Program-made: the position numbers and the translations under genes | From: Verrucomicrobiia bacterium | GTDB lineage: Bacteria; Omnitrophota; Omnitrophia; Omnitrophales; Aquincolibacteriaceae | Length of the DNA stretch: 43,835 nt | Reading direction: 5' to 3' | Assembly: GCA_035495615.1 (NCBI GenBank) | Contig: DATJFP010000034.1 | Span: 1-43,835, forward strand | Shown: positions 317-18,510 of the stretch, one piece after another | Position numbering within the stretch: position 1 is the first letter of the stretch | Layout of the letters: the number at the start of each line of letters is the position of its first letter | Notes under the pieces: generated by a model | Database searches by the model: none | The model's input: the letters and a program-made list of their open reading frames with translations, nothing else | Told to the model about the DNA's origin: nothing

Positions 317-1345
317 TCAGAAAAGGATACGGACCCGGGGGTCCTCGCCCTTGGTGCGCCGGATTGTCCCAATGACCCAGGAGGGAAGCTTCTGGGCCTG
401 CAGGATGCGCCGGGCGGCGGGTAAGGCACGAGGCTTCAGGACAAGGACCATCCCGATGCCCATATTAAAAGTTCTAAACATTTCAAAAGACGGTATGTTA
501 CCAGAATCCTGGACCCATTGGAACAACTTTGGCCGCGGCCAGGACAGCGGATCGATCTCCGCGCCGAGGCCTTGAGGGATGACGCGCGGCAGGTTGTCGA
601 TCATGCCGCCGCCGGTGATGTTCACGATGCCGGCGATGGGGACAGACCGCAGAAGCCGGAGGACAGGCTTCACGTAAATCCGCGTAGGCGTCAGGAGTTT
701 TTTTCCGGCTTCGCCGCGCAGCTGCTTGGCGGAGAAAAGTCTGCGGAGGAGCGAATAGCCGTTCGAATGAAATCCCGTGGATGCAAGCCCGAGGAGCAAA
801 TCTCCTTCTTCGATCCTGTTCCCGGTGATGATGCGGCTGCGGTCCACGACGCCGACGGAGAAGCCCGCGACATCATACTGCGACGAGCCGTTGTGCGACT
901 GGTAAAAGCCAGGCATGATCGCGGTCTCGCCGCCGGTGAGCGCGCAGCCGGCCTGGCGGCAGCCGTTCACAATGCCCTTCAGGACTTCGGCCATGACCGG
1001 AGCTTCGAATTTTCCGGTGGCAAAGTAATCGAGGAAGATAATGGGCTGGGCGCCGCAGGTGATGATGTCATTGACGCACATGGCCACGAGGTCGACGCCG
1101 ATCGTGTCGTGCTTGTGCCGCGCGCGCGCGATCTCGAGCTTGGTTCCCACGCCGTCGGTGGACGTCACCAGCAGCGGGTCGCGGACGCCTGATTTTTTCA
1201 CGTCGAAGAGCGAGGCAAATCCCGTGGCGCTTCCGAGCACGCCGGGAATGCGGGTGGAATGGATGAGGCTTGTGATCTTGCGGTTGTACGACGGGTCCCC
1301 TTTCAAGTGAGGGACGCCCGCCTTTTCATAAGTCCAGGATTTCAT
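317..1345 (-). CDS. purM: Phosphoribosylformylglycinamidine cyclo-ligase (AIR synthetase)
   Basis: PurM closes the imidazole ring of FGAM with ATP to give AIR, the fifth step of purine synthesis. The 342-residue length is normal for the family. The ATP/substrate segment DGVGTKLEIA is at residues 64-73, followed by GVDLVAMCVNDI and GAQPIIFLDYFATG, and ASTGFHSNGYSLLRR appears near residue 190. The ATG at 1345 has no close upstream partner: 110 bases separate it from the giant gene upstream. A TATACT hexamer at 1395-1400 could be a -10 element, so purM-purD may have a promoter of its own. The gene is separated from the rest of the pur operon by the two giant genes, which is the odd point here. 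Confidence 0.97.
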   Translation of the reverse strand: MKSWTYEKAGVPHLKGDPSYNRKITSLIHSTRIPGVLGSATGFASLFDVKKSGVRDPLLVTSTDGVGTKLEIARARHKHDTIGVDLVAMCVNDIITCGAQPIIFLDYFATGKFEAPVMAEVLKGIVNGCRQAGCALTGGETAIMPGFYQSHNGSSQYDVAGFSVGVVDRSRIITGNRIEEGDLLLGLASTGFHSNGYSLLRRLFSAKQLRGEAGKKLLTPTRIYVKPVLRLLRSVPIAGIVNITGGGMIDNLPRVIPQGLGAEIDPLSWPRPKLFQWVQDSGNIPSFEMFRTFNMGIGMVLVLKPRALPAARRILQAQKLPSWVIGTIRRTKGEDPRVRILF

Positions 1346-1455: not shown

Positions 1456-4400
1456 TTACGCGGCGCTCTTGATCGCTTCGCGCGCTTCGGCCCAGTTGAC
1501 GAGAGCCCGGGCCACGCTGCCAAGCGAAACGCTGGCGCCGTCGCCGGTCAGTTGGATCATGCCGCCGCCCTCGTAGGTCATGAGCAGGCGCATGTTGCCG
1601 AGAAGCTCGGCCTGGAGAAGTTTGCGGTTGGCTTCGGGCTCCTTGAGATCGCGGATGTTGGCCGCGGCCACGATGCCCAGCACGATCTGCAGGAGCGCCG
1701 CGTAGGTGCGGACGCGCGGGTCGTTGACTTCCTGATCCGCGACGAGCTCGACGCCGAAAAATCCCTGCCCCAGATTTTCTTCGAGCTTGCCCGCGGCAAC
1801 CGCCGGAAGCACCACCTGCCCGTCGCCCAGCACTTTGACGCCGCGCAGCGTACGCACGGGATTGAGCCGAGCCGGCCCCACGATCTGCCCGATCTCTTTC
1901 CCCTGCCTTCCCATGTCGCCTTTGACGACCAGCCGCTCGATCATGGCCCGAACCTGCTTCAGCGGGTCGGCGTAATTGGCCGCTTCGCTTTCCGAGTCCA
2001 CTTCGAGCGCGAGCGTAAAGGCGCGGTTCGGGAATTTCGTCCGGAGATAAGTACCGAGCACTTCGTCCACGAGATAATGCAGCGCGTCTTCGAAATTCGC
2101 GTCGCTGACAAGCTCTTTCGCCTGCGCGGCTTCGCGCGCGGACCGTTTGAGGCTGTCGAGGAATTGTTCGAGCGTGATGGCGTTCTCGTTCAGCACCTGG
2201 CGCGTGGACCGCGTGGCTTCTTCGACTTCCTGTCCCGTGGCCGCGGCGCCTCTGTCCAGAACGCGGACGACAAGCTGCGTGGCTTTTCTCGCCTCGTCGG
2301 TGAGCCCGGAAGGGTTGCCTTGGCGCAATTCCGCCCGCGGCGTCACACGCACGTCGGTCCGGGCCTGCATTTTCCCGGCGATTTCTTCGCGCGGCATGTT
2401 TTGCTTCGCGAGCGCCAGGGCATCGGCAAAAATCCGGTCCGCGGCCGCGGCGTCGGTAGTGTCGAGGTCCATGATGATCCACGGCGCCGCCGCATTGTCC
2501 TTCACCGTAAGATTCATCTCAAACGTTTCCAGCCCCGGCCGTTTCTGCACGATGACAAAAATGCCGTTGGCTTCTTCGATCCGCACCTGGTAAAGGCCCG
2601 TACGCAATTCGGCTTTGCGCTCCGCTTCGGCGCGCTGGAACGCCTCGAGCGCCGCGAGCAATTCCTCCTGCGTGAAGACCGTGCCTTCGGTCGTCAGCAC
2701 AAGACGATCGCGCAGGGCCTCTTTCCAGAAAATCTTGTCGCGGTTGTCGGCTTTCGGCTCCGGGCTTAGCCCGCGTTCCCGGCGGGTCTGGGTCTCGCGC
2801 TCATTCAAATAAGCCGCCAGGCCCCGCACCGTGACGCCGGCCTGGTCGCTGACGGCGAGGACAGCCTTCGAGCCTTGAACGCCTTCGAGCGGCTGATAGT
2901 CGCGGTTCGGCTGCCCGTTCAGCTGCTGCGTGTTGTCTTTGTAGATCACGCCGCCCAGTGTTCCCATCGTGTACAGATAATCGAAGAAGATGCTTTCCGG
3001 ATTGCGGGAGGCCACCATGTCCAGGTCCTTCAGGTCTTCCCCTTCCACTTCGCTGACCAACCGAACGTTCAGCTTCACGGAACGGTCCGGCGCCATTTCG
3101 CGCGCAAAGTCGTCCAGGTCTTTGCGGACTTTTTCTTTTGCGCTTCTGAAGAGCGCCTGCAATTCGGCGGGGACGTCGTTTTCCAGGATCTCGCCTTTCC
3201 TGACGTCGAAGTCGTAGCCGGTGTCCAGCATGTGATTCAAAAGGCCGTTCAGGAAATTACTGACAAGTTCGACGCGCCGCACATCCTTGATTTCGCCCAG
3301 GCGTCCGAAAAAGGCGCCGCGCCGCGCCGCGAAATCCGGCGCGAAGACCTGCCCGAAACTCTGAAGCCCGAATTCCTTCAACGCCGCGGCCGTGGCTTCG
3401 TCGTCGGCGATTTTATTCAACGCGAAGACAAGAATGCCGAGAGTGTTTTGCAGCTGCGGGATGCTTTTGATGTCGAGCTGGCCGCTGTCCCAGGAATTGA
3501 CGTAGTTGACGTAATCCACGAACCCTTTCAACTGTTCCGGCAAAAAGCCGAAGCGCCGGACGAAGTTGACGAGCACGACGGACGCAATGGCGTCGAAGTC
3601 GGGATCGGCATGGGTCATGATTTTCAGGATTTTTCCGGAAGACGCGAGCTTCTGGCGGTTGTCGAAAACCAGGCGCGTCGCGCTCAGGCCCCGGTATTGG
3701 TGATGGTCGAGGATGCCTTTGGCCAGACCCGCGGAAGCAGCCACGACGCTGTTGACGCGGCCGATGTCGGTCACGATGGTTCCCTCTTCGATCGCGTCCA
3801 GAGAAAGGACGCGGTCTTTGGTAAAGCCCAGCTTGACGTCTTTGAGATCGAGGCTGAAATCCAGAGCGCGCAGCTCATTGCGGCCCTGCGCCGCCCGTTG
3901 GGCTTCGCGCTGCGCGCCGGTAAACCAGGCGCGCCATTTTTCTTCGAGGGTCTTGGAACCGTAATTTTTCCCTCCCGTGATTTCGAGCATGAGCTTGAGG
4001 TAATACGTGTCGTCGATCTCGGGCGCGGCTTGTTTTCCCGCGGCCTCCAGCGCGCGCTGCTGCGCCCTTCTCGTCAGCTCATGGATTTCGCCCATCCAAA
4101 TAAAGGAAGGCTCCGTGCGTCCCCAGGCCGTACCGAGAACGTACGGGCTTTGTTCTTTGAGGAAGTCGGGAACCAGCTCGCGGGCGCGCTCAGAATCCGC
4201 GCCCTTCAGGCTGAGTTCCGCGCGCACGGCCGAAGTTCTTTCGTCCCCTTCAATCCACTCGCGCCAGGCTTCCTGAATCTCGGGCACGCTCTTGAGGTTT
4301 CCAGCCAAAAAATCCCGGATGATGCGGTTTCCTGCCTCTTTGTCGGCTCCGAACTTCTGATAGTCAATGCCTCCCACGAAGTAAACCAGCCTGTTCGCAA

Positions 4401-7400
4401 GGTAATTCAGGCGTTCAGGATCCTTGGCGAAGGCTTTTTTCAGCGCTTCAAAGTCCGCCTCGTCCACGGGCCCTTTAAAGATTTTGCTTTCGAAAATTTC
4501 CCATGCCTGGGTTCCGGCCTGAAATTGCTGGCGAGCCTCAGCGATTTTATTTTCGCGCACCTGATTCACCGCGACGCCTGCGAGCACGGCCGACAACAAC
4601 AGCAGGAGGGGCCAATTATTGCGAAGGCCGCGGACGAAATCACCGAAGAATCCGCGCAGCTCGGCGCGCTGATTGTCGTTCAGAGCCCCCGCCTGCTGCA
4701 GCACCGGGAGAAGAGCGTCCCAGTCCGGAAGCGCGGGGCGCGAGCCCATCTCCATCAGAGTTTCCGCGAGAGACGCCACAGCGGGATCCGCCGCGAGCAG
4801 CGAGCCGGTTTCTTCGAAGCTGCGAAGTTCCGGATGATACAGCTGGCGCGCGTACGCCACGGTCCTGTCGTAGACTTGTTCGACGTCCAATTTTTGGCGG
4901 GCAAGCGCCACGGCGTTTTCGAAAACCCGGCGCGCGATGTCCCCATCCGGCGCGATCTCGACGATCTCGGCGCCCGGCCGTCTGACTTGCGGGAAATGAA
5001 TCGTGTAAAGCTGATTGGCGCCGTCCCAGGCGACGTTGATCCGGACGCCATTAACCTCCGCATGGTCATGATAACCCAGATGCCGGACCTGCACGTCCGC
5101 GAAAGCGTCGGTCTGCCGGCGGACCTGATCGAGCTTCAGGCCCTGCGCGGCCAACTCCACGGCCCTTGCAAAGACGCTGCGGGCATCGTCCACGTCATCG
5201 GACAAAATCAAAGGAGCCGGGGCCTTCCCGTCGGAGCGGAATTGCGGGAATTCGACGGCATAAGCCGCGGCCGCATCGTCCCAGTACACTTCGATGCGGA
5301 TCCCCTTTTCGACAACCTCCGAATAGATCCTGTCCGCACGCGCCAGCCGCCCGGACTGCTTTTCCGCTTCGACATGCAGCGCGTAAGCATCCAGTCCCAG
5401 CTGCGCGAGCATTTTCGTCCGTTCCATCACCTTGAGCGCGGTTTGCCTGTTCGCGGGAATCGAAATCGACGGGGAAGCTATGCCCCGGTCGTTCGGGACC
5501 TGGATTTGGGGAAAAGTGAGCTTGATCGAATTGGCCGCATTATCCCAGGCCGCGGTAATGTCCACGCCGTTCACGCGGGCTTTATCCGAATACCGGGACG
5601 CGTCTTCGGCCAGGATTTGGCGCGTATCGTCGGCGGTTTTTTTATAGAGATCGTAGACGTCAGACGTGCCCGCCGCATGCGCCTTGGCCTTTTCGAACAC
5701 GCTCAAGGCCAGCTTTTCATCGGGTGAAATCCTGATGTAGCTGGAATTCACGCGCTCGAAGTCCACCAGCATTTCCGGGAATTCCACGATGTATTCGTTC
5801 AGGTCCGAATGCCAAAGCAGCTCGATGGCGATTTTGTTGACGACGGTCCTTTCGTACCGCTTCCCCTGGGCGCGCAATTCCGATTTCCCCGCCGCCGCCG
5901 TTTCAAGGGGAGCTCCCGGCAGGCGCCTGAAAGCAAAACCCGCAGCATCGAGAAGAACACGGCGCGTCGAGCCTAGACCGGGCGCGTCTTCATCCAGCGC
6001 GCCGGCCATCACGGCTTCGGTCATGGTCCCGGGCCGTAAAAGCTGGCGGATGTTCTGGTCCGTGAGTTGATTCTGCGCCTGGAGCTGTTTGAGGCCTTCC
6101 ACAAAATTTTCCACTTTGCCGACAAGCTTTTTCTCATAGGCATCTGCCGCAGAGCCGCCCGTTTTTTCGTCGATGAAACGCGTGTAGCGCCCCGCTTCGG
6201 CCACCTGTTTTTCGCTCGAAAGGTCGCGGATGATCTGGTCGCGCCATTCCTTAAGCATGCTTCCCTGGTCCGGACTTTTGAGGAGCAGCCGGTCACGCGC
6301 CGCGCGGACAAAAGCCTTGTAAACGTCGACCTTCCCTTCCTCCACGCGGAAATAATCTTTCCAGGAAACCAGGCCCCGCATGTGGTCTTTGTAACGGACC
6401 TCGCGGGGAAGTCCCGTGATTTCCGGCGCAAGAAGCAGGTACGAAACACCCCGCTCCTTCAGCCGCTCGACAAGGCCTTCGGTATGAAAGCCTCCGGCCA
6501 CGAACAGGACGGCCGCAGGCCCGTTGCCCTGTGAGTCGAGCATCTTTTGAAGCCGCTCGGCAAACACACCGTCGCGGGCTTCCGCATTCTTATAAAAGGC
6601 GACCTGCGCGTCCATCATTCCCGCGGGCGCCAAGCGGTCGAGGCCCCTGATTTTCAGCTCTTCCCACTGATGGCGCGTCAACTCGAGACTGCCGAGTTTT
6701 TTCAGCAGCTCCAGCTCGCGCTCTTCGCGGTCGAGCTGCTTCACGTCTTCTCCGGCCATCAAGGTCTCTTTGACCGCGGCCGCGTAATTTTCGAAAGCGT
6801 CGAAAAAACGAGTCCCTTCGATGTCACGCATCCGCTTCTGCTGCCGGGTGAGGCGCAGGAGGTCTTCGGAAATCTGAAGTTTCAGATCCATCTTGGAATT
6901 GAGGTCCCGGATAAAAAGCATGAATTCCTGCGGGCTGAGCTGAGAGACTTTGAGCGCCTGGAATTTTTCGTTGAAGGCCGCCTGCAGTTTGAGCTCTTCC
7001 GAAGAAGGACGGGACAGGGCCGCGAAGCGCGCCGTCACGGTCTCCCCGATTTTTTTGGCCTCGATCTCCGCGGGCACGCGGTTTTCCGGACGGCGCTCGC
7101 CTTCTTCGAGGATCAGCGCAAGCTCGCTTCCGGCTTCCGGCTTTTTGATCTTGGCCAGCAGCCGCAGCGCGGTCAGCAGGTCTGTATCGCCCTTGCGGAA
7201 ACTTCTCAGGCCGCGGTCGATTTCGAGGAGCGGCGCCGGATAAATTTTTTCCTGGCGCGCTCTGAGGTCTTCGTCACGGCGCGAAAGATTCTGCTCGACG
7301 GCCGCGGAGCGCGAAAGCGCGTCGAGGAAATCCGCATAGCCGGTTTCGTACAGCGCCCAGTCTTCGATCCCTTCGTAGGCGGCGGGATGCTCATTGAAGA

Positions 7401-7839
7401 TGGCGGCCATGGTCGGGCCGGTCAGCTCCCCCTGGTCGAGGTATTCCTTGAAAGTCTTTTTGAGAATTTCCGCATTCGGAAAACTTTTGAAGATTTGCGG
7501 GTTCAGCCGGGATGCGGCGCCTTCCAAAGCCACGTGTGACAGGCCGTAGGTCTGCTGGAAAAAATCGATCAGGTTGCGGATGTTCCGCTGCGCGTCGGGA
7601 ATACCGTGCGCGTCCTGGATCAGCACCACGACCCTCCGGCCGCTTTGATGGGTTTCTTCTTTCTTTCCGATGTTGGAGGGAATTCGAATTTCGTTCAGGT
7701 CGGACGGCAGCCACAGCTGAGCCGGGGCCGCCGGCGTTTCCGCGGCGGCAACCACGACGGGAATGCCGTTCGGGCTGGTGATAAAGGAAGCCAAGGCCAA
7801 GGCCGCGATCAGGCGATTCATCCTTGTTTTTTTGTGCAT
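1456..7839 (-). CDS. Giant secreted multidomain protein A (TraB/ChaN/Tiki-like N-module, tandem repeats, DHH-like centre)
   Basis: 2127 residues. A signal peptide is seen (basic MHKKTRMNR, hydrophobic core, likely cut after AAA near residue 33), so the protein should leave the cytosol. Residues 50-605 match giant protein B closely; in residues 76-150, 63 of 75 positions are identical. This module has QDAH (H78), ALEG (E106) and AGGFH (H452), resembling the paired GxxH motifs of the TraB/ChaN/Tiki superfamily. Residues 667-1000 hold four ~87-residue repeats centred on W676, W765, W853 and W938, with a worn fifth copy at about 1749-1825. One membrane segment lies near 1076-1091. Residues 1326-1600 contain VTDIG (1356), ILDHHQ (1376) and THADPDFDAIAS (1409), DHH-phosphoesterase-like motifs in unusual order. 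Residues 1850-2127 form the C-module shared with protein B. ELR motifs mark the boundaries. GAGG lies 8 bases before the ATG. The function is unknown and the enzymatic roles are inference. Confidence 0.85.
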   Translation of the reverse strand: MHKKTRMNRLIAALALASFITSPNGIPVVVAAAETPAAPAQLWLPSDLNEIRIPSNIGKKEETHQSGRRVVVLIQDAHGIPDAQRNIRNLIDFFQQTYGLSHVALEGAASRLNPQIFKSFPNAEILKKTFKEYLDQGELTGPTMAAIFNEHPAAYEGIEDWALYETGYADFLDALSRSAAVEQNLSRRDEDLRARQEKIYPAPLLEIDRGLRSFRKGDTDLLTALRLLAKIKKPEAGSELALILEEGERRPENRVPAEIEAKKIGETVTARFAALSRPSSEELKLQAAFNEKFQALKVSQLSPQEFMLFIRDLNSKMDLKLQISEDLLRLTRQQKRMRDIEGTRFFDAFENYAAAVKETLMAGEDVKQLDREERELELLKKLGSLELTRHQWEELKIRGLDRLAPAGMMDAQVAFYKNAEARDGVFAERLQKMLDSQGNGPAAVLFVAGGFHTEGLVERLKERGVSYLLLAPEITGLPREVRYKDHMRGLVSWKDYFRVEEGKVDVYKAFVRAARDRLLLKSPDQGSMLKEWRDQIIRDLSSEKQVAEAGRYTRFIDEKTGGSAADAYEKKLVGKVENFVEGLKQLQAQNQLTDQNIRQLLRPGTMTEAVMAGALDEDAPGLGSTRRVLLDAAGFAFRRLPGAPLETAAAGKSELRAQGKRYERTVVNKIAIELLWHSDLNEYIVEFPEMLVDFERVNSSYIRISPDEKLALSVFEKAKAHAAGTSDVYDLYKKTADDTRQILAEDASRYSDKARVNGVDITAAWDNAANSIKLTFPQIQVPNDRGIASPSISIPANRQTALKVMERTKMLAQLGLDAYALHVEAEKQSGRLARADRIYSEVVEKGIRIEVYWDDAAAAYAVEFPQFRSDGKAPAPLILSDDVDDARSVFARAVELAAQGLKLDQVRRQTDAFADVQVRHLGYHDHAEVNGVRINVAWDGANQLYTIHFPQVRRPGAEIVEIAPDGDIARRVFENAVALARQKLDVEQVYDRTVAYARQLYHPELRSFEETGSLLAADPAVASLAETLMEMGSRPALPDWDALLPVLQQAGALNDNQRAELRGFFGDFVRGLRNNWPLLLLLSAVLAGVAVNQVRENKIAEARQQFQAGTQAWEIFESKIFKGPVDEADFEALKKAFAKDPERLNYLANRLVYFVGGIDYQKFGADKEAGNRIIRDFLAGNLKSVPEIQEAWREWIEGDERTSAVRAELSLKGADSERARELVPDFLKEQSPYVLGTAWGRTEPSFIWMGEIHELTRRAQQRALEAAGKQAAPEIDDTYYLKLMLEITGGKNYGSKTLEEKWRAWFTGAQREAQRAAQGRNELRALDFSLDLKDVKLGFTKDRVLSLDAIEEGTIVTDIGRVNSVVAASAGLAKGILDHHQYRGLSATRLVFDNRQKLASSGKILKIMTHADPDFDAIASVVLVNFVRRFGFLPEQLKGFVDYVNYVNSWDSGQLDIKSIPQLQNTLGILVFALNKIADDEATAAALKEFGLQSFGQVFAPDFAARRGAFFGRLGEIKDVRRVELVSNFLNGLLNHMLDTGYDFDVRKGEILENDVPAELQALFRSAKEKVRKDLDDFAREMAPDRSVKLNVRLVSEVEGEDLKDLDMVASRNPESIFFDYLYTMGTLGGVIYKDNTQQLNGQPNRDYQPLEGVQGSKAVLAVSDQAGVTVRGLAAYLNERETQTRRERGLSPEPKADNRDKIFWKEALRDRLVLTTEGTVFTQEELLAALEAFQRAEAERKAELRTGLYQVRIEEANGIFVIVQKRPGLETFEMNLTVKDNAAAPWIIMDLDTTDAAAADRIFADALALAKQNMPREEIAGKMQARTDVRVTPRAELRQGNPSGLTDEARKATQLVVRVLDRGAAATGQEVEEATRSTRQVLNENAITLEQFLDSLKRSAREAAQAKELVSDANFEDALHYLVDEVLGTYLRTKFPNRAFTLALEVDSESEAANYADPLKQVRAMIERLVVKGDMGRQGKEIGQIVGPARLNPVRTLRGVKVLGDGQVVLPAVAAGKLEENLGQGFFGVELVADQEVNDPRVRTYAALLQIVLGIVAAANIRDLKEPEANRKLLQAELLGNMRLLMTYEGGGMIQLTGDGASVSLGSVARALVNWAEAREAIKSAA
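4840..5841 (-). repeat. Four tandem ~87-residue protein repeats inside giant protein A
   Basis: Residues 667-1000 of the encoded protein show a recurring pattern: a short strand such as NGVRINVAWD, then Y-x-[IV]-x-F-P-[QE], a variable charged or proline segment, and a helix of the type A-x-x-V-F-x-x-A-x-x-L-A. The anchoring Trp residues are at 676, 765, 853 and 938 (spacings 89, 88 and 85), and the FP pairs start at 687, 776, 864 and 949. A degenerate fifth unit lies near residues 1749-1825, after the DHH-like region. The copies are diverged, so this is an old domain duplication rather than a recent DNA expansion. I do not recognise the fold. Confidence 0.75.
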
Positions 7840-7986: not shown

Positions 7987-10900
7987 TTATGCGGCGGATT
8001 GGACGAGTTCGCGCGCTTCCCAGTTGATCAGCAAAGCCGACAGGCGTTTCATGGAAATGCCGGCGCCGTTGACCGTGGGCTGGATCATCTGCCCATCGCC
8101 GTACTGAACAAACACGCCCATGTTCTGAAGGAGGGACGCTTTCAGAAGCTCGCCTTTCATCTTGAGGGCGTTTTGATCTTTCAAATTGGCCGCGGCCATG
8201 ATGCCGAGTACCAGTTGCAGCAATGCGGCATAGGTGCGGATGCGGGGATCCGTAATGTCGGTGCCGTCGTCGAAAATGAGCTCGACGCCGTAAATCCCTT
8301 CGTTGAGCGATTCCTGGAATTGTCCCGGCGTGACGGCCGGCAGCACGATCTGCCCGCCGTTCAAGACCTGGATGCCACGGAAACTTTTCACCGGGCTGAG
8401 GCGGGAAGCGCCGAGCGCATCGCGAAGCGCCTTGCCCTGGCCTCCCACGTCGCCTTTCACGATGAGGCGTGAGATGAAATCCTTCAAACGCTGGACCGGC
8501 TCCAGATAATCGGCAGCCTCGCTTTCGGAGTGGACGTCGAGCGCCAGCGTAAAGGCCTGGTTCGGGAAATTCGTTTTCAAATAATTTCCCAGCACTTCGT
8601 CGAGCAGGTAATTCAAAGCGGCTTCGTAATTCGCGTTGGGGATGATGCCCTGCTTGGCAAGCGCCATGGCCTTCAATTCCGCGATGAACCGGTCAAGACT
8701 CATTTCGTTCCCCGTGACGATCTGGCTTGTGCCGTGCGCCGCGCGCGCCACTTCTTCGCTGCCGGCGCCGGGTTCTTCCATGACATGTACGACAAGCTGC
8801 GTGACGCGGCGTATCTCCGCCTGATCCGCCTGTTGCTGCGGAGGCGCTTCATTCACGCGTTCGGCCGGCGTCCGGGCTTCTTCGGGGGATTGTCTCAATT
8901 CCGATTTGGTTTCCGCTTTCTCCAGCGCGGCAAGGCGGGTATTTTCGGCCGTGACCGTGGCTAGACGCGCCTTCGTATCAGCAAGTACGCGCACGCCCTC
9001 CGATTCGAAGTCCGCGACGAACTTGCGGTAGGCGGTGGCTGCGGCCGTGAAAAGGTCGTGAGCCGCCTTGAGATCCGCGGCCGCGGCGATACCGTCGGTC
9101 GCGGTCTTAACCTGGTCGAGGCGCACATCCAATTCGGCGAGGGCTTTGTCGTACTCCTGTTTCGCGCGGTCTTTTTCCGCCGTCTTTGCCGTCTGCCGCT
9201 CCTGGGCCGTATTCACGGCGGTTTCATAATCGGAAGTGTCTTTTGCCGTGGCGCCGCTGTCTTTAAAAGCGAGATAGGCTTCGCGCAGCAGTTTCATCTG
9301 CGGAGGACTAGGCACCATGTTTTTTTGCAGCGCTCCCTGCACGGCCGCAAGCGCATTGCGGAATTTTGAGCTGACCGCCGCGTTCGGCGGCAAGGGATTG
9401 ATCTTGGGCGCGGGTCTTGCCGGCAAGGCAGAAGACGGCGGCGTGGCCGGAGCGGCCGGCGGCACGGCCACCGCGGGCGCCTTCACCGTTTCGTCCGGAG
9501 TCCCCACGGTCGCGGCCGGAGGAAGCGCGTCGTTTCTTTCCGGCTGTTCCACGGGAAGCACTTTGAAGGAAACAAACTGTTTGTCCCCGTCCACGCGGAT
9601 CGTGAGCGTGAATTTGTGAATGCCCGACGGCGCTTCCGCGGAGAAATCAATCTGGGTCTTTTGCGGGTCGATTTTTGTGATCCTGGCGGTCAGTTCCCTG
9701 CTTTTCGTGAAACCCGCTTCCCGGAAAGCCTTGGGGATATTGATATTGTCGGTCCGCATGTCCATCGCGCGCTGCAAACGGCTCAGGAATTCTCCGAAGC
9801 CGCGGGATTTGAATCCGCCTTTGAAATCCCCGGCATCGAATTTGAACTCCTTGGCCGCGAAGGGATCCGCCGTCGCGGCAGCCGCGGCTCTCTTTCCCTT
9901 TTGCTGGTCCAGATTTTCGAGGAAGGAACCGCCGTTGGCAACAAAGACAATAGCGAGATAAAACGCAATTCCCAAAGAGATCCGCGCGCCCAAAAGCCCC
10001 ATGGCGGGGAACAGCGCGGGCACTGCCAGCCCCGCGACCACGGTGACGGCCGTGAAGGCCATGCCTACGGCAAAAGCTCCCCATGGGCCGAAACGTTTAT
10101 TCGCGCGGCTGAAAAGCCCCAGTGCAGGATTACTCAAAGGAAGCCAGGCCAGTTTTTTTTGAAAAGGCGTGCGGGTGTCCGGCTCTACCTTGGCCGGCGC
10201 GGGCTTTGCCTTGGCGGGTTCAGGAAGATCCGACACTACCGCATCCGGCTTGGACGGTTTTCTCAAGTTTGCGGGATGAAAATTTTCTTCGGCGATGTAG
10301 GCAATGCTGCTGAAGATAAAAAGCGCGCCGGCATAAAGGCCGACAGCAAAGGCAATGACGCCCCATACAGGTCCCAGCATCGCAGCGCCCACGAAAGTGG
10401 CGACCCCGGTCAGGATGCCCGTGATCATGCCCGCGATGCCGGCGCCCGGCTCGCCCCACCGCTCGGTCAGCCAATCCAGAAGATCTTCAATTTGAAATCC
10501 TCCCGGCAAGGCTCTCACGAGTCTCTGGAGCCAGGCCGTGGCGAGGCCTTCCTTGCGTTTTTCCGCTTCTTCTTTTTGAGCCGCTTCCGCACGCAGCTGG
10601 GCCTTGGTCTTTCCGCTCTTAGGCTGCGAGCGCATTTCCGCTTTCATTTCCTGAAGGGTGCTGAGAACGCCCAGCATGATCTGTTCCACATTTGTGCTGC
10701 CGGTCAGGTTGGGATCGCGGGCCAGTTTTCTCCGGTTTTCCAAAAACACGAGTTCCTGGTCGATTTCACGCTTGGCAAGCTGGAGAAATTGATCGCGGAC
10801 GAACTGCTTTGCTGCATCACTCAGGTCGAGCCCTTGAAATTGCTTCGCCGGATCGCCCAGGATTTGCCCGCTCAATTCGAGAAGGCCCTGATAAATCAAC

Positions 10901-13900
10901 CTGCTGTTCTCGAGAAAATCTCCCGTCTCCGCGACCCCGTCCACGCGGATAGGCACCTTTCTCGCGATGAGATCGCGTACGAGGTCAGACAGAAGGTCCG
11001 CGATGAAACCGCCGATCTCGGCGTCGGCGTTCTGCGGCGCGGCCGCAGGAGGCGTCACACGCGGCGTATGCTCGAAATACCATTTCAAATCCGCGAGGAT
11101 CGCGGCCTGAAAATCAAACAGCTTGTTCTTTTGAGACGGTTCGACGAGGTCTTCCAGGGGCATGCGCTTGAGGTCCTCCAACTCAGTCCCGCGGATAGCC
11201 GGGTTCGGTCGGATCTCCCCGATTCCGCCGTCGGTCAAATGAGCTCTCAAGATACTGGAGACGCGGTCGGCCACGGCTTCTTTGATATCCGCCCACTGGG
11301 CCGCCGGCCCCGCGCGGAGCGCCAAAGCCTCGATTCCCTTTTCACGGTTGCTGATGAAGTCCTGTTTAAAGGAGCTCGCCCAGCCAGCCCAAAGCCCTGC
11401 CACTGCCGTGGCGGTATTGCCGAAAATTTCCTTGGCCTGGATTTCTTCCAGCTCCCGTTTTTTCTTGTCCGCGTATTGCTCGGGCAGGGTGACGATGACC
11501 CTGCGGATATCCTGAAAAAAATCGCCTTCGCCCGCTTCAAAAGCCGCCGGATGGGACCAGTTCAGGTTTAGCACCATACCCAAAAGAGTCGTGAGCTGCT
11601 CCTCCATAAACTCGCCGAAACCTTCCAGATCCAATCCTTCCGTCTGCAGGAAGGTGGCGATTTTGTTAAACGTGGCCGCGTGGGTTCCCATCTGGTTTTC
11701 CAGGAATGCGAAAATCTTCGGCCCATCCAGCCGCTTCTCGGTAGGATCGACTCCCATCTGCCGGAAAATGCGGTAGATGAATTGCGCCGTGTTCCCGGAC
11801 CGCTCGGCGACCAGATTGTTGATGAATGCGGCGCCGTCCGTCACCTTCGTCTCGTCATCCGTAAGACTTCCCAGATTGTTGCGGACATATTTGATCAAAT
11901 ACGTGGCGAGCTTGGTCAAAATGACTTTCCTCACGTCCTCCGCCCGGATCTCAGCGCGAACAGCTTCGGGCTGGCCCTCCATGCGGATCGCGGCTTCAGG
12001 CGGCGCATAGACCTGCCCCGCACGGTTGAAGTCCTCGGTCTTTTCCGCGACGCTCAGGCCGGAAGGCGTCTGCGTGACTTTATAATTCGTGCCGAGGAAC
12101 GTGAACTCCGCGAGGCCCTGCGCGGTGAGGTCCGCGATTGTGGCCGGACGCAGGAGCCGCATGATGTTTTGCTCGTTGAGCTGGTTATGGGATTCCAGGT
12201 CCTGCAGCCCCTGGACGAATTTCTCGACTTTCTGCAGGAGCTGGTTCTCGACGGGCGCGCCTCCGGATTTTTCGTCGATGAATTTCGTGTAATTTCCGAC
12301 CTCGATGATGCGCTTCTCGTCCGCCAGGTCACGGATGATCTGGTCGCGCCAGTCTTTGAGCATACGCCCCTGGTCCTGGCTCTTGGCGAGCATCTTGTCT
12401 CGGGTCGCGCGGACAAACGCCTTGTAGACGTCAACCTTGCCCTGCTCCACTTCGAAATAATCCTTCCACGAAACCAGGCCTTTCATGTGGTCCTTGTAGA
12501 GGATTTCGTCCGGCAGCCCGTTGATATCCGGAACGAGCAGCACGTAGGAGATATTCCTCTCCTTCAGCCTCTCGACCAGCCCTTCGGTATGGAAACCGCC
12601 CGCGACAAAAAGCACGGAAGGATTCGCTTCCCCTGTTTTTTTCAGCAATTCGCCCAGACGGTCCGCGAACACCCCGTCGCGCGCTTCGGCGTTCTGATAA
12701 AAGGCGATGTGGGATTTCAGGATGGCGGGATCGGCCCGCTTGCCGGCGCGCAGCGTCTTGAATTCTTCCCACTGATGGCGGGTCAGCTCCATGCTTCCCA
12801 GCTTTTTCAAGAGCTCCAGCCGGTGGGATTCGGAATCCAGTTCCCTTTCCTCGTCACTGCGGAAAAGCTTTTCTTTCACGGAGTCGGCATAAGCTTCGAA
12901 CGCCTCGAAAAAGCGGGTGCCCTCAATGTCCTTGATGCGTTTCTGCTTGCGCATCATGCGCTGCATGCCGCCCGAAACCTGGAGCTTCAGGTCCATGCCG
13001 GCCGTGATCTCCTTGACGAAGAGCATGAATTCCTGCGGGCTGATTTCCGAGACCTTCAGCGCCTGGAACTTTTCGTTGAACGACGCGAGCAGCTCGCGGT
13101 CGCCGGCGGACGGATTGGGTTTGGACAGAAGGTAATCGCGGATCTGCTGACCGATTTTTTTCGCTTCGATGTCAACCGGCACCTGGCTTTCCGGATCCTT
13201 CAGGCTTTCTTCATAAACCAGCGCCAGTTCGCTGCCTTCGGGCGGAGCCTTTATGGCCGCGAGCACGCGGATGACTTCCAGAAGATCCATGCCGTTTTTC
13301 CGGAAATTCTTGAGCGCGCGCGCGACCCCCAGCAGCTTTTCCGAATAAACTTTTTCCTGCCGAGACTCGAGTTCTTTTTCCTGCGCCTCCATCGTCTTCC
13401 GGATGTTTTCCGCTTTCGACATGGCCGCCAGGAAATGGCCGTAGCCTTCTTCGTAAAGCTTCCAGTCTTCGATGCCCTGGTAAACGCCGGGCTGCTCGTT
13501 GAAAATCGCGGCCATGGAAGTGCCGGTGAGCTCGCCTCGTTCGAGATATTCTTTGAAGGTCTTTTTCAGGATTTCACGGTCGGGAAAGCTCTTGAAGATC
13601 TGCGCGTTGAGACGCGAGGCCGCGCCCTCCAGCGCCACCTGCCGCACGCCGTAGGTCTGCTGGAAAAAATCGATAAGGTTGCGGATACTTCGCTGCGCCT
13701 GCGGAATACCGTGCGCGTCCTGCACCAGAATGACCACGCCCTTGGAATCGGGTGCCTGCCGGATTTCTTCTTCCTTTCCGATGTTCACGGGAATCTGAAT
13801 TTCGGAAAGAGTGGCGGGCAGGCTGGACACGGAAGCGGGAGGCAGAGGTTCGGCGGACGCGATGCGGACAAAAGAAGTTTCGGACAGACTAAAGGCGATG

Positions 13901-13947
13901 AGGACAAAGCCGGCCGTCAGCTGTCGGGTTAACTTGAACCTTGTCAT
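7987..13947 (-). CDS. Giant secreted multidomain protein B (paralogue of A with a different, membrane-spanning centre)
   Basis: 1986 residues. It has a signal peptide with likely cleavage after ASA near residue 32. Residues 50-603 are the same N-module as protein A, with QDAH (H79), ALEG (E107) and AGGFH (H453). The centre is unlike A. Residues 670-1100 are mostly helical and charged. Residues 1168-1220 and 1286-1340 contain about four hydrophobic membrane segments rich in Gly and Ala. A small mixed domain lies at about 1366-1465, a Pro/Ala-rich linker at 1473-1520, and a probable coiled coil at 1575-1680. Residues 1712-1986 are the C-module shared with A. The boundary motifs are RAEIR (664), KAEMR (1102) and KSELR (1681). 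The gene lies 194 bases after purF and 147 before gene A. The paralogy and architecture are directly visible; the function is unknown, and the N-module's hydrolase-like nature is inferred only from its histidine motifs. Confidence 0.85.
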   Translation of the reverse strand: MTRFKLTRQLTAGFVLIAFSLSETSFVRIASAEPLPPASVSSLPATLSEIQIPVNIGKEEEIRQAPDSKGVVILVQDAHGIPQAQRSIRNLIDFFQQTYGVRQVALEGAASRLNAQIFKSFPDREILKKTFKEYLERGELTGTSMAAIFNEQPGVYQGIEDWKLYEEGYGHFLAAMSKAENIRKTMEAQEKELESRQEKVYSEKLLGVARALKNFRKNGMDLLEVIRVLAAIKAPPEGSELALVYEESLKDPESQVPVDIEAKKIGQQIRDYLLSKPNPSAGDRELLASFNEKFQALKVSEISPQEFMLFVKEITAGMDLKLQVSGGMQRMMRKQKRIKDIEGTRFFEAFEAYADSVKEKLFRSDEERELDSESHRLELLKKLGSMELTRHQWEEFKTLRAGKRADPAILKSHIAFYQNAEARDGVFADRLGELLKKTGEANPSVLFVAGGFHTEGLVERLKERNISYVLLVPDINGLPDEILYKDHMKGLVSWKDYFEVEQGKVDVYKAFVRATRDKMLAKSQDQGRMLKDWRDQIIRDLADEKRIIEVGNYTKFIDEKSGGAPVENQLLQKVEKFVQGLQDLESHNQLNEQNIMRLLRPATIADLTAQGLAEFTFLGTNYKVTQTPSGLSVAEKTEDFNRAGQVYAPPEAAIRMEGQPEAVRAEIRAEDVRKVILTKLATYLIKYVRNNLGSLTDDETKVTDGAAFINNLVAERSGNTAQFIYRIFRQMGVDPTEKRLDGPKIFAFLENQMGTHAATFNKIATFLQTEGLDLEGFGEFMEEQLTTLLGMVLNLNWSHPAAFEAGEGDFFQDIRRVIVTLPEQYADKKKRELEEIQAKEIFGNTATAVAGLWAGWASSFKQDFISNREKGIEALALRAGPAAQWADIKEAVADRVSSILRAHLTDGGIGEIRPNPAIRGTELEDLKRMPLEDLVEPSQKNKLFDFQAAILADLKWYFEHTPRVTPPAAAPQNADAEIGGFIADLLSDLVRDLIARKVPIRVDGVAETGDFLENSRLIYQGLLELSGQILGDPAKQFQGLDLSDAAKQFVRDQFLQLAKREIDQELVFLENRRKLARDPNLTGSTNVEQIMLGVLSTLQEMKAEMRSQPKSGKTKAQLRAEAAQKEEAEKRKEGLATAWLQRLVRALPGGFQIEDLLDWLTERWGEPGAGIAGMITGILTGVATFVGAAMLGPVWGVIAFAVGLYAGALFIFSSIAYIAEENFHPANLRKPSKPDAVVSDLPEPAKAKPAPAKVEPDTRTPFQKKLAWLPLSNPALGLFSRANKRFGPWGAFAVGMAFTAVTVVAGLAVPALFPAMGLLGARISLGIAFYLAIVFVANGGSFLENLDQQKGKRAAAAATADPFAAKEFKFDAGDFKGGFKSRGFGEFLSRLQRAMDMRTDNINIPKAFREAGFTKSRELTARITKIDPQKTQIDFSAEAPSGIHKFTLTIRVDGDKQFVSFKVLPVEQPERNDALPPAATVGTPDETVKAPAVAVPPAAPATPPSSALPARPAPKINPLPPNAAVSSKFRNALAAVQGALQKNMVPSPPQMKLLREAYLAFKDSGATAKDTSDYETAVNTAQERQTAKTAEKDRAKQEYDKALAELDVRLDQVKTATDGIAAAADLKAAHDLFTAAATAYRKFVADFESEGVRVLADTKARLATVTAENTRLAALEKAETKSELRQSPEEARTPAERVNEAPPQQQADQAEIRRVTQLVVHVMEEPGAGSEEVARAAHGTSQIVTGNEMSLDRFIAELKAMALAKQGIIPNANYEAALNYLLDEVLGNYLKTNFPNQAFTLALDVHSESEAADYLEPVQRLKDFISRLIVKGDVGGQGKALRDALGASRLSPVKSFRGIQVLNGGQIVLPAVTPGQFQESLNEGIYGVELIFDDGTDITDPRIRTYAALLQLVLGIMAAANLKDQNALKMKGELLKASLLQNMGVFVQYGDGQMIQPTVNGAGISMKRLSALLINWEARELVQSAA

Positions 13948-14141: not shown

Positions 14142-15551
14142 TTAACTGCGCTTTTTTTCGAGCTTGAGCTTGTCGATCTCGTCAGAAACCGGCGTGGGAT
14201 AATGCCCCGTAAAGCAGGCAGCGCAATAGAGGCTCTTCTCATGGCTGGCCGCACTGAGCATGCCGTCAAGGCTGAGGTAGCCGATGCTCTCCACGTCGAG
14301 AAATTTTTTGATCTCCTCCATGGAGTTGTTGCAGGCCAGCAATTCTTGCTTGGACGGGAAATCGATGCCGTAATAACACGGCGAAATATGCGGCGGGCAG
14401 CTGATCCGCATATGGACTTCTTTTGCTCCGGCGCGCCTCAAAAGCTTGACGCGCGAGCGTGCCGTGTTGCCGCGGACAATGGAGTCGTCGACCACGATCA
14501 CGCGCTTGCCGTGGATCATCTCCCGGATCGGGTTCAGCTTGATCTTGATCTTGGTGGCCCGCATGGATTGCGTAGGATTGATAAACGTCCTTCCGATGTA
14601 GTGATTGCGGGTGAAGCCGTGCGCCAGCGGGATGCCCGACTCCTGGGCATAACCCAGGGCTGCGAAGTTCCCCGAATCCGGAACGGGCACGACAATGTCC
14701 GCCTGCACCGGATGCTCCTTGGCAAGGTTCCTTCCCATTTTTTCACGCACCTGCGCCACGTTATCCCCAAAAACAAGCGAGTCCGGTCTCGCGAAATACA
14801 CGTGTTCGAAAATGCAATGGGCCTTCTTTTTTCCCTGGTCTTCAAACGGGAAGAAGCTGCGCGGGCCTTTGTCGTCGATGATCAGGACTTCCCCGGGCTG
14901 GACGTCGCGAATGTAATCCGCATCGATGAGATCGAACGCGCAGGTCTCGGAAGCCACGACGTATCCTCCGCCGAGTTTGCCGAAGCACAACGGACGGAAG
15001 CCGTGTGGGTCCCGGACCGCGAAGAGCTGGTTTTCTTTGAGCATCACGACACTGAAGGCGCCTTCCACCCTTTTGACGGATTCGATGACAGCCTCTTCCG
15101 GAGAACGGTATGAAGGCTTGGCCATCAGGTGGATAAAGAGTTCCGAATCCGTGGTGCTGCCGAAAATCGAACCGTAAGCCTCGAGTTCCGCGCGGAGAAT
15201 CTGGGCATTCGTGAGATTGCCGTTATGGCCGATGGCCACCTGGCCACGGGAGTAATCCACGCGGTAAGGCTGGGCATTGATCAGGCTGGACGATCCTGTT
15301 GTGGAATAGCGTGTATGCCCGATGGCATGCTGGCCCGGCAGCGAGGCGAGGACTTTTTCGTTGAACACGTCGCCGACAAGCCCCATGCCCTTGTGCAGGT
15401 GCAGGTTTTCCCCGTCACTCGAGCAGATACCGGCCGATTCTTCGCCGCGGTGCTGGAGCGCGAACAGGCCGAGATACGTGATGTAGGCCGCGTTGGGAAG
15501 ATTGAAGGCCCCGAACACGCCGCAATGGTCTTTGATGTTTTCGCCGCTCAT
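14142..15551 (-). CDS. purF: Amidophosphoribosyltransferase, iron-sulfur (B. subtilis) type
   Basis: PurF makes phosphoribosylamine from PRPP and glutamine, the committed step of purine synthesis. It has 469 residues. The nine-residue propeptide MSGENIKDH precedes the nucleophile C10 of the glutamine amidotransferase domain, so self-processing is expected. The amidotransferase continues through RYSTTG (81) and GHNGNL (108). The PRPP-binding stretch VIVVDDSIVRGNT is at 351-363. C246, C392, C443 and C446 match the four ligands of the 4Fe-4S cluster in the B. subtilis-type enzyme, whose cluster is oxygen-sensitive. The start codon overlaps the purL stop (TAATG), fixing the start and indicating translational coupling. 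It is the last of the tightly packed pur genes before the two giant genes. Confidence 0.97.
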   Translation of the reverse strand: MSGENIKDHCGVFGAFNLPNAAYITYLGLFALQHRGEESAGICSSDGENLHLHKGMGLVGDVFNEKVLASLPGQHAIGHTRYSTTGSSSLINAQPYRVDYSRGQVAIGHNGNLTNAQILRAELEAYGSIFGSTTDSELFIHLMAKPSYRSPEEAVIESVKRVEGAFSVVMLKENQLFAVRDPHGFRPLCFGKLGGGYVVASETCAFDLIDADYIRDVQPGEVLIIDDKGPRSFFPFEDQGKKKAHCIFEHVYFARPDSLVFGDNVAQVREKMGRNLAKEHPVQADIVVPVPDSGNFAALGYAQESGIPLAHGFTRNHYIGRTFINPTQSMRATKIKIKLNPIREMIHGKRVIVVDDSIVRGNTARSRVKLLRRAGAKEVHMRISCPPHISPCYYGIDFPSKQELLACNNSMEEIKKFLDVESIGYLSLDGMLSAASHEKSLYCAACFTGHYPTPVSDEIDKLKLEKKRS

Positions 15552-17806
15552 TACTGCTCCATCTTTTTGGGAATGGCCGAATCGTAAATTTCGCGCAGGT
15601 CCGCTATTTTAGCACGAATCGCGTCGCCGACGTGAAGTTCCTTGCCGCCTGTCCGCCCGATCTGGTAAAGCGGCACGGAAAACGACTTGGCCTTGCGCAG
15701 GATTTCCTCTTTGTGTTCGGGCTTCACGGTGATCAGCACGCGGCTCTGGCTTTCGCCGAAGAGCAGCGAGTCTTTGCGCAGCGATTTCTTGTCCGCGGCC
15801 CTCGGCGTGACCAGATCTAGCTGGTCCACCACGGCGCCTATCCCCTCTTCTTTACCGAAGCAGCTCTCGGCAAGCGCAACGGCCAAACCGCCCTCAGCGA
15901 GATCGTGGCAGGATTTCAGAAGGCAGGAATCCCCCATGGCCAGGATAAAATTCTGCAGCGCTTTTTCCTTCGCGAGGTCGAGCCGCGGCGGCAGTCCTTT
16001 TTTCAGCCCATGCTCGATCATAAGGTAATGCGAGCCGCCGATTTCATCGTACGTGTCGCCGGCCAGGAAAAGAATGTCACCTTCGTTTTGAAAATGCGAA
16101 GGCACGCGCTTCGAGAGATCGTCCAGGATACCGACCATGCCCACCGTAGGCGTGGGATAAATCGCGGCCTTCGGGCTTTCGTTATAGAAGCTCACGTTGC
16201 CGCCCGTCACCGGCGTGTTCAGCGCCTTGCAGGACGCGATCATGCCGTTCACGGACTGATGAAATTGCCAGAAGACGTCGGGCTTCATGGGATTGCCGAA
16301 GTTCAGGCAGTTGGTAATCGCAACAGGCCGCGCGCCGGAACAAACCACGTTGCGGGCGGATTCGGCCACGGCGATCTTGCCGCCTTCGAAAGGATCGAGA
16401 TAGCAATACAGGCTGTTGCAGTCGGTCGAAACCGCGATGCCGCGTTTCGTGCCCTTCACCCGGATGAGCGCCGCGTCATGGCCGGGATAGAAAACCGTGT
16501 CCGTCCGCACCATGTGGTCGTACTGGCGCCACACCCAGCCCTTCGAGGCAATCGTGGGATGGCCAAGAAGCTTCTTGAGCACGGCCGTGCAATCCTGGGG
16601 CTCTTTCACCGAGGACGGATCAAACTTCCGCGTTTCTTCCAAATAAGCGGGCACGGCTTCTTCGCGCACATAGATGGGGCCTTCTTCGGCCAGAGCACGC
16701 GCGGGAATCACCGCCACTTTTTCCGGACCATCATACACGGTCATGAGGGTCCCTGCTTTGATCTCGCCGATCTTCACGGCATGCAGATCCCACTTGTTGA
16801 AAATGTCTTCGATTTTCTTTTCCTTGCCCTTCTGCGCGATGATGAGCATGCGCTCCTGGGATTCGGAAAGCATGATTTCGTACGGCACCATGCCGGTCTC
16901 ACGGCGCGGCACTTTCTGCAAATCGATCTCGATGCCGATGTCGCCTCTGGACGCGGTTTCGCAGGTCGAGCAGGTGAGACCGGCCGCGCCCATATCCTGC
17001 ATGGCGACCAGCGCGTCGGTCTTGATCAGCTCGAGGCAGGCTTCCATCAAAAGTTTTTCCATGAACGGATCACCCACCTGCACCGCGGGCCGGTCTTCGT
17101 GGCTTTCTTCACTGAGTTCCTTCGAGGCAAACGCCGCGCCGCCCAGACCGTCGCGTCCCGTGGCCGCGCCGACGTAGTAAACCGGATTGCCCACGCCGCT
17201 TGCTTTCGCGCGCACGATCTCGTCTTTTTTCATGATGCCGAGCGCCATGGCATTGACGAGAGGATTGCCTTCGTAACATTCGTCGAAATAAACTTCGCCG
17301 CCGATCGTCGGCACGCCGATGCAGTTGCCGTAATGCGCGATGCCCGCGACCACGCCGCGGAAAAGCCTCTTGGTCACGGGCTTTTCCAGGCTGCCGAAGC
17401 GGAGCGAGTTCATCAGGAGAATCGGCCGCGCGCCCATGGTGAAGATATCGCGCAGAATGCCGCCCACGCCCGTGGCCGCGCCCTGGAAAGGCTCGATGGC
17501 TGATGGATGGTTGTGGCTTTCGATCTTGAAGCAGACGGCCAGGCCGTCGCCGATGTCCACGATACCGGCGTTCTCTTCACCCGCCTTCACGAGCAGGTCC
17601 GGGCCTTCGGTCGGAAAGGTCTTGAGGATGGGCTTGGAATTTTTATAAGAGCAATGCTCGCTCCACATCACGCTGAAAATCCCGAGTTCCGTGAAATTGG
17701 GCTCGCGCCCCAGAATCTTCACGATCTTTTCGTATTCGGGCTGCGTGATGCCGTGCGCGGCGATCATTTCCGGCGTGATTTTTTCAGGAGTTTTCGTCAT
17801 GGTCAT
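15551..17806 (-). CDS. purL: Phosphoribosylformylglycinamidine synthase, large subunit
   Basis: PurL carries the ATP-dependent synthetase activity that turns FGAR into FGAM, using ammonia delivered by PurQ and held together by PurS. The 751 residues match the small-PurL type that needs separate PurQ and PurS, both encoded just upstream. Motifs seen: [14 protein letters not shown] near residue 42, [23 protein letters not shown] near 90-112, and [12 protein letters not shown] near 250. The ATG at 17806 overlaps the purQ stop as ATGA, which supports this start over a much longer frame reaching 18172 whose extra residues are low-complexity arginine-rich read-through. A second ATG two codons later is equally possible. 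Confidence 0.97.
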
Positions 17807-18510
17807 GTCCGCGATCCCATCGTGACGTCCAGGATGCTCTCCCAGATCTTGCGGCCGTGATCGCAGCCCAGCACGTCTTCGCTCGCGCGCTCGGGATGCG
17901 GCATCATGCCCAATACGTTTCGCTTTTCGTTGAGGATGCCGGCGATATTGCTCTTGGCCCCGTTCGGATTGAAAGCCGCGGAAACGTCGCCGTCTTTGGA
18001 GCTGTAGCGGAACGCGACACGCGACTCGTCCTGCAGGCGCTTCAGCGTGTCGTCGCTGCAATAATAATTGCCTTCGCCGTGCGCGATCGGAAGCGAGATC
18101 GTCTCGCCTTTCTTGAAATGCCGCGTGAAAATGCTGTTCGTGTCTTCCACGCGCAGCCACACGTGCTTGCAAATAAAGGAAAGGGAGAGATTGCGCAGCA
18201 TGGCGCCGGGAAGAAGTCCCGCTTCGAGAAGAATTTGAAAACCGTTACAGATGCCGATGACGGGCTTGCCTTGGTCCGCGTGCTTTTTCACGGCTTCCAT
18301 CACCCGCGAAAAACGCGCGACCGCGCCGGTGCGCAGGTAATCGCCGTAGCTGAAGCCGCCCGGAAGCACGATGAGCTCGGCCTCTCCGAGCGCCGCGTCC
18401 TTGTGCCACACGAATTCGACCTTCATGCCCATCACGTCCTTCAGGACGTTGTAGCAGTCGGTATCGCAATTCGAGCCGGGAAAAACAACGACGGCCGCCT
18501 TCATCGTCAT
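17803..18510 (-). CDS. purQ: Phosphoribosylformylglycinamidine synthase, glutaminase subunit
   Basis: A class I glutamine amidotransferase that supplies ammonia to PurL. It has 235 residues from the ATG at 18510. It begins [16 protein letters not shown], the usual PurQ N-terminus (VxxFPGSNCD). [13 protein letters not shown] and GICNGFQIL contain the oxyanion region and the nucleophile cysteine (GICNG). HPERASED near the C-terminus supplies the catalytic His-x-Glu. The start overlaps the purS stop as ATGA, and the stop overlaps the purL start in the same way, so purS-purQ-purL are translationally coupled. The insert between the nucleophile and the C-terminus is normal for PurQ. Confidence 0.97.

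Follow-up and report, generated by a model that had tools for sequence, protein, structure and literature searches.

Can the catalytic site of a DHH phosphoesterase be built from motifs that follow each other in a permuted order? DHH enzymes control c-di-AMP, pApA, short RNAs, pyrophosphate and DNA ends, and to our knowledge every known member carries its motifs in the same order. In the window analyzed here, the whole stretch of 43,835 nucleotides that forms contig C34 of a genome of 3.16 Mb in 106 contigs, the original prediction had pointed to an exported giant protein in which a DHH triplet precedes the HxxPDxD motif, and had proposed a circularly permuted catalytic set. All features of the window given with coordinates below lie on the minus strand.

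Motifs of the DHH-like module

The giant ORF P0001 (2127 aa, 1456..7839) was identified as an ORF call with a signal-peptide-like start. From N to C it comprises an N-terminal module (residues 1-660), repeats, one hydrophobic segment, the DHH-like module and a C-terminal module (1817-2127). The DHH-like module covers residues 1320-1745 (2605..3882; also given as 1322-1744) and is bounded by linkers. The hydrophobic segment (1076-1096, 4552..4614), located upstream of the module, is a possible transmembrane helix. The N-terminus fits the predicted export, but this segment makes the label uncertain; judged from the protein sequence, a single hydrophobic segment after a signal-peptide-like start could leave the DHH-like module in the cytosol. 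An assembly artefact inside P0001 was considered and rejected (junctions without strong repeats, even GC3).

The three motifs VTDIG (1356-1360, 3760..3774), ILDHHQ (1376-1381 with D1378, H1379 and H1380, 3697..3714) and HADPDFD, the latter within THADPDFDAIAS (1409-1420 with H1410, D1414 and D1416, 3580..3615), were found at the predicted residues. The HxxPDxDA pattern of motif I is present at residues 1410-1417. The DHH of ILDHHQ follows a hydrophobic strand, as motif III does in the DHH superfamily. The DHH tripeptide stands 29 residues upstream of motif I, which confirms the unusual order: P0001 has III and then I, where the superfamily has I, II and III. An overlooked motif I in the canonical position can be dismissed, since a regex scan of P0001 returned DHH and HxxPDxD once each. 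Profile and regex scans also returned no motifs II-III downstream.

To examine motif I, local profiles were derived from 31 DHH domains found within the phylum, comprising RecJ and NrnA proteins, proteins of a 369-aa type and a single giant. The motif I profile reached 20.3 bits on the DHH-like module, the next best place within 9,874 residues of giants having 2.3 bits. Pfam and hhalign agreed with this assignment. DHH was the sole Pfam family to match a 146-aa core piece (22.9 bits, E 1e-4), and hhalign gave a probability of 87-91% to canonical DHH domains. By these comparisons, motif I of the P0001 module is truly DHH-like.

The upstream half was analyzed in the same way. HMMER reported the local profile on the module as two domains, in the order II-III and then I. 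The best place in the giants for the local II-III profile is also the P0001 module, with 7.3 bits (an unrelated place reached 5.8). When motif I was moved back in front, the Pfam DHH match became continuous over profile positions 4-76 and scored 25.5 bits; two shuffled controls gave 14.9 and 15.3 bits. With the local profile, shuffling the upstream half reached the de-permuted score in 5 of 2000 trials. A permuted DHH profile, scored without P0001's own row, gave 27.5 bits on the core, a score reached by none of 2657 whole shuffles and by one of 3000 shuffles of the upstream half. That the DHH tripeptide stands 29 residues before motif I by chance is unlikely. The DNA pattern DHH-(24-34 aa)-Hx[ND]xDxD occurs at five other places in 384 genomes, and no credible DHH gene is among them.

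The signal of the upstream half resides in the DHH hexapeptide, because 744 of 3000 shuffles that kept ILDHHQ and motif I and randomized the rest scored as well. D1358 of VTDIG, a motif II candidate, has the right spacing, yet by the same shuffles its match does not rise above chance. The Pfam gathering score of PF01368 (28.1 bits) lies above the values obtained, which were 14.6-22.9 bits depending on the piece and 25.5 bits after de-permutation. Of the proposed circular permutation, the III-before-I order, the DHH-type motif I and the continuous de-permuted match hold; motif II is not above chance, and neither a DHHA1 domain nor a match above the Pfam cut-off was found.

The region behind the DHH strand was compared with a profile from 14 real NrnB-type proteins of Bacillota plasmids and phages, for which an NrnB sequence served only as bait. 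In a weak alignment, this profile places SATRLVFDN (1386-1394, 3658..3684) on the SAT helix found behind DHH in NrnB, and FVDYVNYVNSWDS (1440-1452, 3484..3522), a motif IV candidate with D1451, on the motif IV region (FvelVrdYDt). With the motif I block excised, the SAT helix and the motif-IV-like stretch (WDS) stand at NrnB spacing. When the motif IV stretch alone was shuffled, the NrnB score was reached in 3 and 5 of 2000 cases, and it was still reached in 7% and 5% when all but DHH was shuffled. The alignments thus lend modest support to an order III, SAT, I, IV; beyond motif I and the DHH tripeptide, the catalytic set is suggestive. In the C-terminal half of the module, DHHA1 gave no Pfam match, profiles of the NrnA- and RecJ-type C-terminal parts scored no better than on shuffles, and GGGH is absent from the module. 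AlphaFold predictions without homologues were uninformative (two models, pLDDT 36 and 40).

Relatives of the module were sought in 27 genomes of the family, 384 genomes of the phylum, viral contigs, plasmids, phages and PDB sequences, and none was found. Matches in viral contigs and a single genome-contig match, to an ATPase-like protein of Leucothrix, were due to chance, and matches within the order at E up to 5 were chance or canonical DHH proteins. One candidate locus (L024) proved to be a giant with an HExxH-like stretch, and MYG1 (PF03690), considered as the nearest DHH family, had no match in the own genome. The permuted profile matched DHH proteins in 236 of 237 genomes; among the matches listed, best first, only the P0001 locus spans both halves of the profile. 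We found no paper on a permuted DHH enzyme in the open-access literature.

Mosaic giants in a purine operon

P0001 and a second giant, P0002 (1986 aa, 7987..13947), lie between purF and purM. The AIR synthase gene (purM, 317..1345) is located downstream of P0001, and the genes of a PurF-like amidotransferase (14142..15551), PurL (FGAM synthase, 15551..18172), SAICAR synthetase and adenylosuccinate lyase are located upstream in the same orientation. The purF and purM genes adjoin in 22 of the 27 genomes of the family. In two others (G014 and G018) giants border purF and purM, on separate contigs. P0002 has the same N- and C-terminal modules as P0001 (58.8% and 47% identity, respectively) and no DHH-like module. 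The N-terminal module of P0001 recurs in many giants of the genome, whose longest open frame has 23,964 aa. In both giants of the window its start (7738-7839 and 13800-13947) is signal-peptide-like and leads into a domain bearing the motifs QDAHG and GGFH, which we take to be reminiscent of the Tiki/TraB/ChaN group.

The DHH-like module is flanked by the linkers NELRA (1321-1325) and KAELRT (1742-1747). The linker pattern [RK][SA]E[LAVMI]R is strongly enriched in giants (4 seen and 0.10 expected in P0001; 21 seen and 0.26 expected in the giant L080), and seven ordinary proteins of the window lack it. It was observed between unrelated modules of giants (those of the window and L080, L060, L096, L098 and L131), about 5-250x as often as in shuffled sequences. 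In the checked giants with a complete start it also stands directly behind the N-terminal module, at residues 640-714. Polyprotein-like giants could be processed at this linker.

The slot before the C-terminal module holds UPF0489 in G014. In G018, where the giant has HATPase and cyclic-nucleotide-binding domains besides, it holds a kinase-like sequence, and one giant of the own genome has FHA there. Since the content of this slot differs between lineages, its occupants appear to be exchangeable cargo modules, and the DHH-like module would be one of them within a mosaic giant. The giants at L098 (G018:C41:62000-80000) and L131 (G000:C11:8400-26000) carry HATPase, cyclic-nucleotide-binding, partial adenosine deaminase and FHA modules, which suggests signalling roles of giants besides adhesion. 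A 2945-aa giant (L059, G055:C75:14000-28000) has an embedded DHH domain in canonical order. At L060 (G016:C161:1-8000), an ORF that continues a giant with the N-terminal type of P0001 runs to the end of its contig and finishes there in a RecJ-like II-III piece, in which a glycosyltransferase-like start takes the place of the motif I region. UPF0489 domains are common in the phylum (loci L101-L130 among them), often inside giants with open frames to 39,687 aa.

Alternative readings of the module

The main rival holds that the module is a rearranged, non-catalytic DHH fragment captured by the mosaic protein: motif I would derive from a DHH protein, the remainder would be structural, and the upstream DHH would be a remnant or a coincidence. 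Partial enzymes do occur in other giants, as seen for the RecJ-like piece at L060 and for 46 residues of adenosine deaminase in G018. A motif II candidate no better than chance, the missing DHHA1, the scores below the Pfam cut-off and the middle part of P0001, which is private to its own genome, are also in line with such a fragment. However, the H, the two D and the DHH are all intact in a module that has otherwise diverged beyond recognition, and the SAT helix and the motif-IV-like stretch, with motif I excised, keep an NrnB-like spacing. On balance, we regard a captured fragment as rather unlikely, though it has to be taken seriously.

A domain of another fold, bearing both motifs by chance or convergence, would agree with the missing homologue, the low-confidence structure and matches confined to short stretches. 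The distance of 18 bits between motif I and the next place in the giants, confirmed by the two other methods (Pfam and hhalign), argues against it, and we consider this reading improbable.

A diverged UPF0489 (PF12640) domain was tested as a rival because the order DHH, then HxD is native to this metal enzyme family, which is common in giants. UPF0489 is related to arginase and has DxHxD as its metal motif (PMC12707348). Its sequences carry DHH, DNH or DDH and, 20-30 residues later, HxDxHxD, so that the P0001 module fits the normal order and rough spacing of the family with a DHH/DNH-type motif upstream of HxD. Giants of the phylum often carry UPF0489 modules, and the G014 giant upstream of purM has one (E 1e-8) in the slot corresponding to the DHH-like module, of similar length (427 aa vs 424 aa) and with DHHQ followed by HLDGHPDDVVAS. 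The profile comparisons speak otherwise. A UPF0489 profile from 28 phylum sequences gave no score on P0001, the family had no candidate in the own genome, hhalign returned a probability of 0.1-0.2% against the value above for DHH, and alignment of the P0001 and G014 modules yielded z = 0.48. HADPDFD has Asp in the place of the DxHxD histidine, and the DHH motif I profile found no match among UPF0489 sequences (2.5 bits at most). Nor does the shared slot imply homology, because in G018 it holds a kinase-like sequence. A UPF0489 origin is therefore quite improbable, and is kept at low weight because of the shared slot and DHHQ.

Interpretation and comparison with known systems

We favor, with a probability of roughly 0.4, the reading of residues 1322-1744 as a highly diverged domain of the DHH superfamily whose layout is closest to NrnB/COG2404, with motif I placed after the DHH strand and the SAT helix. 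In such a domain, the first strand and helix, which bear motif I, would sit between the DHH strand with its SAT helix and the motif-IV-like helix (D1451). Given a DHH-like fold, H1410, D1414, D1416, H1379, H1380 and D1451 would form a two-metal site. This site might hydrolyze a phosphodiester, most likely in a short oligonucleotide or a cyclic dinucleotide. The domain would be an exchangeable cargo module with ELR-type linkers on both sides, and the mosaic giant that carries it would be made together with the purine-biosynthesis operon.

Of the single explanations, a permuted DHH enzyme ranks first and is plausible, although its chances remain below even. The fuller proposal, a catalytically complete and first circularly permuted DHH phosphoesterase with the motif I strand and helix behind the DHH strand, carried as a cargo module of a mosaic purine-operon giant, is more tentative, at about one chance in three. 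If P0001 does contain a working permuted DHH domain, the two-metal site tolerates a rewired central sheet, and permuted members slip past annotation that depends on motif order. Giants that combine fixed ends with exchangeable enzyme or signalling modules between linkers, within a nucleotide-synthesis operon, offer a concrete lead on the role of the giant proteins of this group.

Among known DHH proteins, the 369-aa proteins of the phylum (L003 type) have a similar motif I (THDYPDPDSLASA vs THADPDFDAIASV in the P0001 module). These proteins, NrnA and RecJ all keep the canonical order I-II-III, in which the P0001 module differs. The NrnB/COG2404 nanoRNases (DHH-DHHA1) share with it, weakly and with motif I excised, the succession of DHH, SAT helix and YDTW-like motif IV; however, motif I precedes DHH in NrnB and follows it in P0001, which has neither GGGH nor DHHA1. 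UPF0489 resembles the module in having DHH, then HxDx[H/D]xD at similar spacing, in its presence in the phylum's giants and in the operon slot of G014, but differs by the histidine of DxHxD and by the profile comparisons. The giant ORFs of Omnitrophota are likewise very long with few annotated domains; the paper describing them stresses adhesins (PMC10066038), whereas the giants considered here have signalling and enzyme-like modules between ELR-type linkers.
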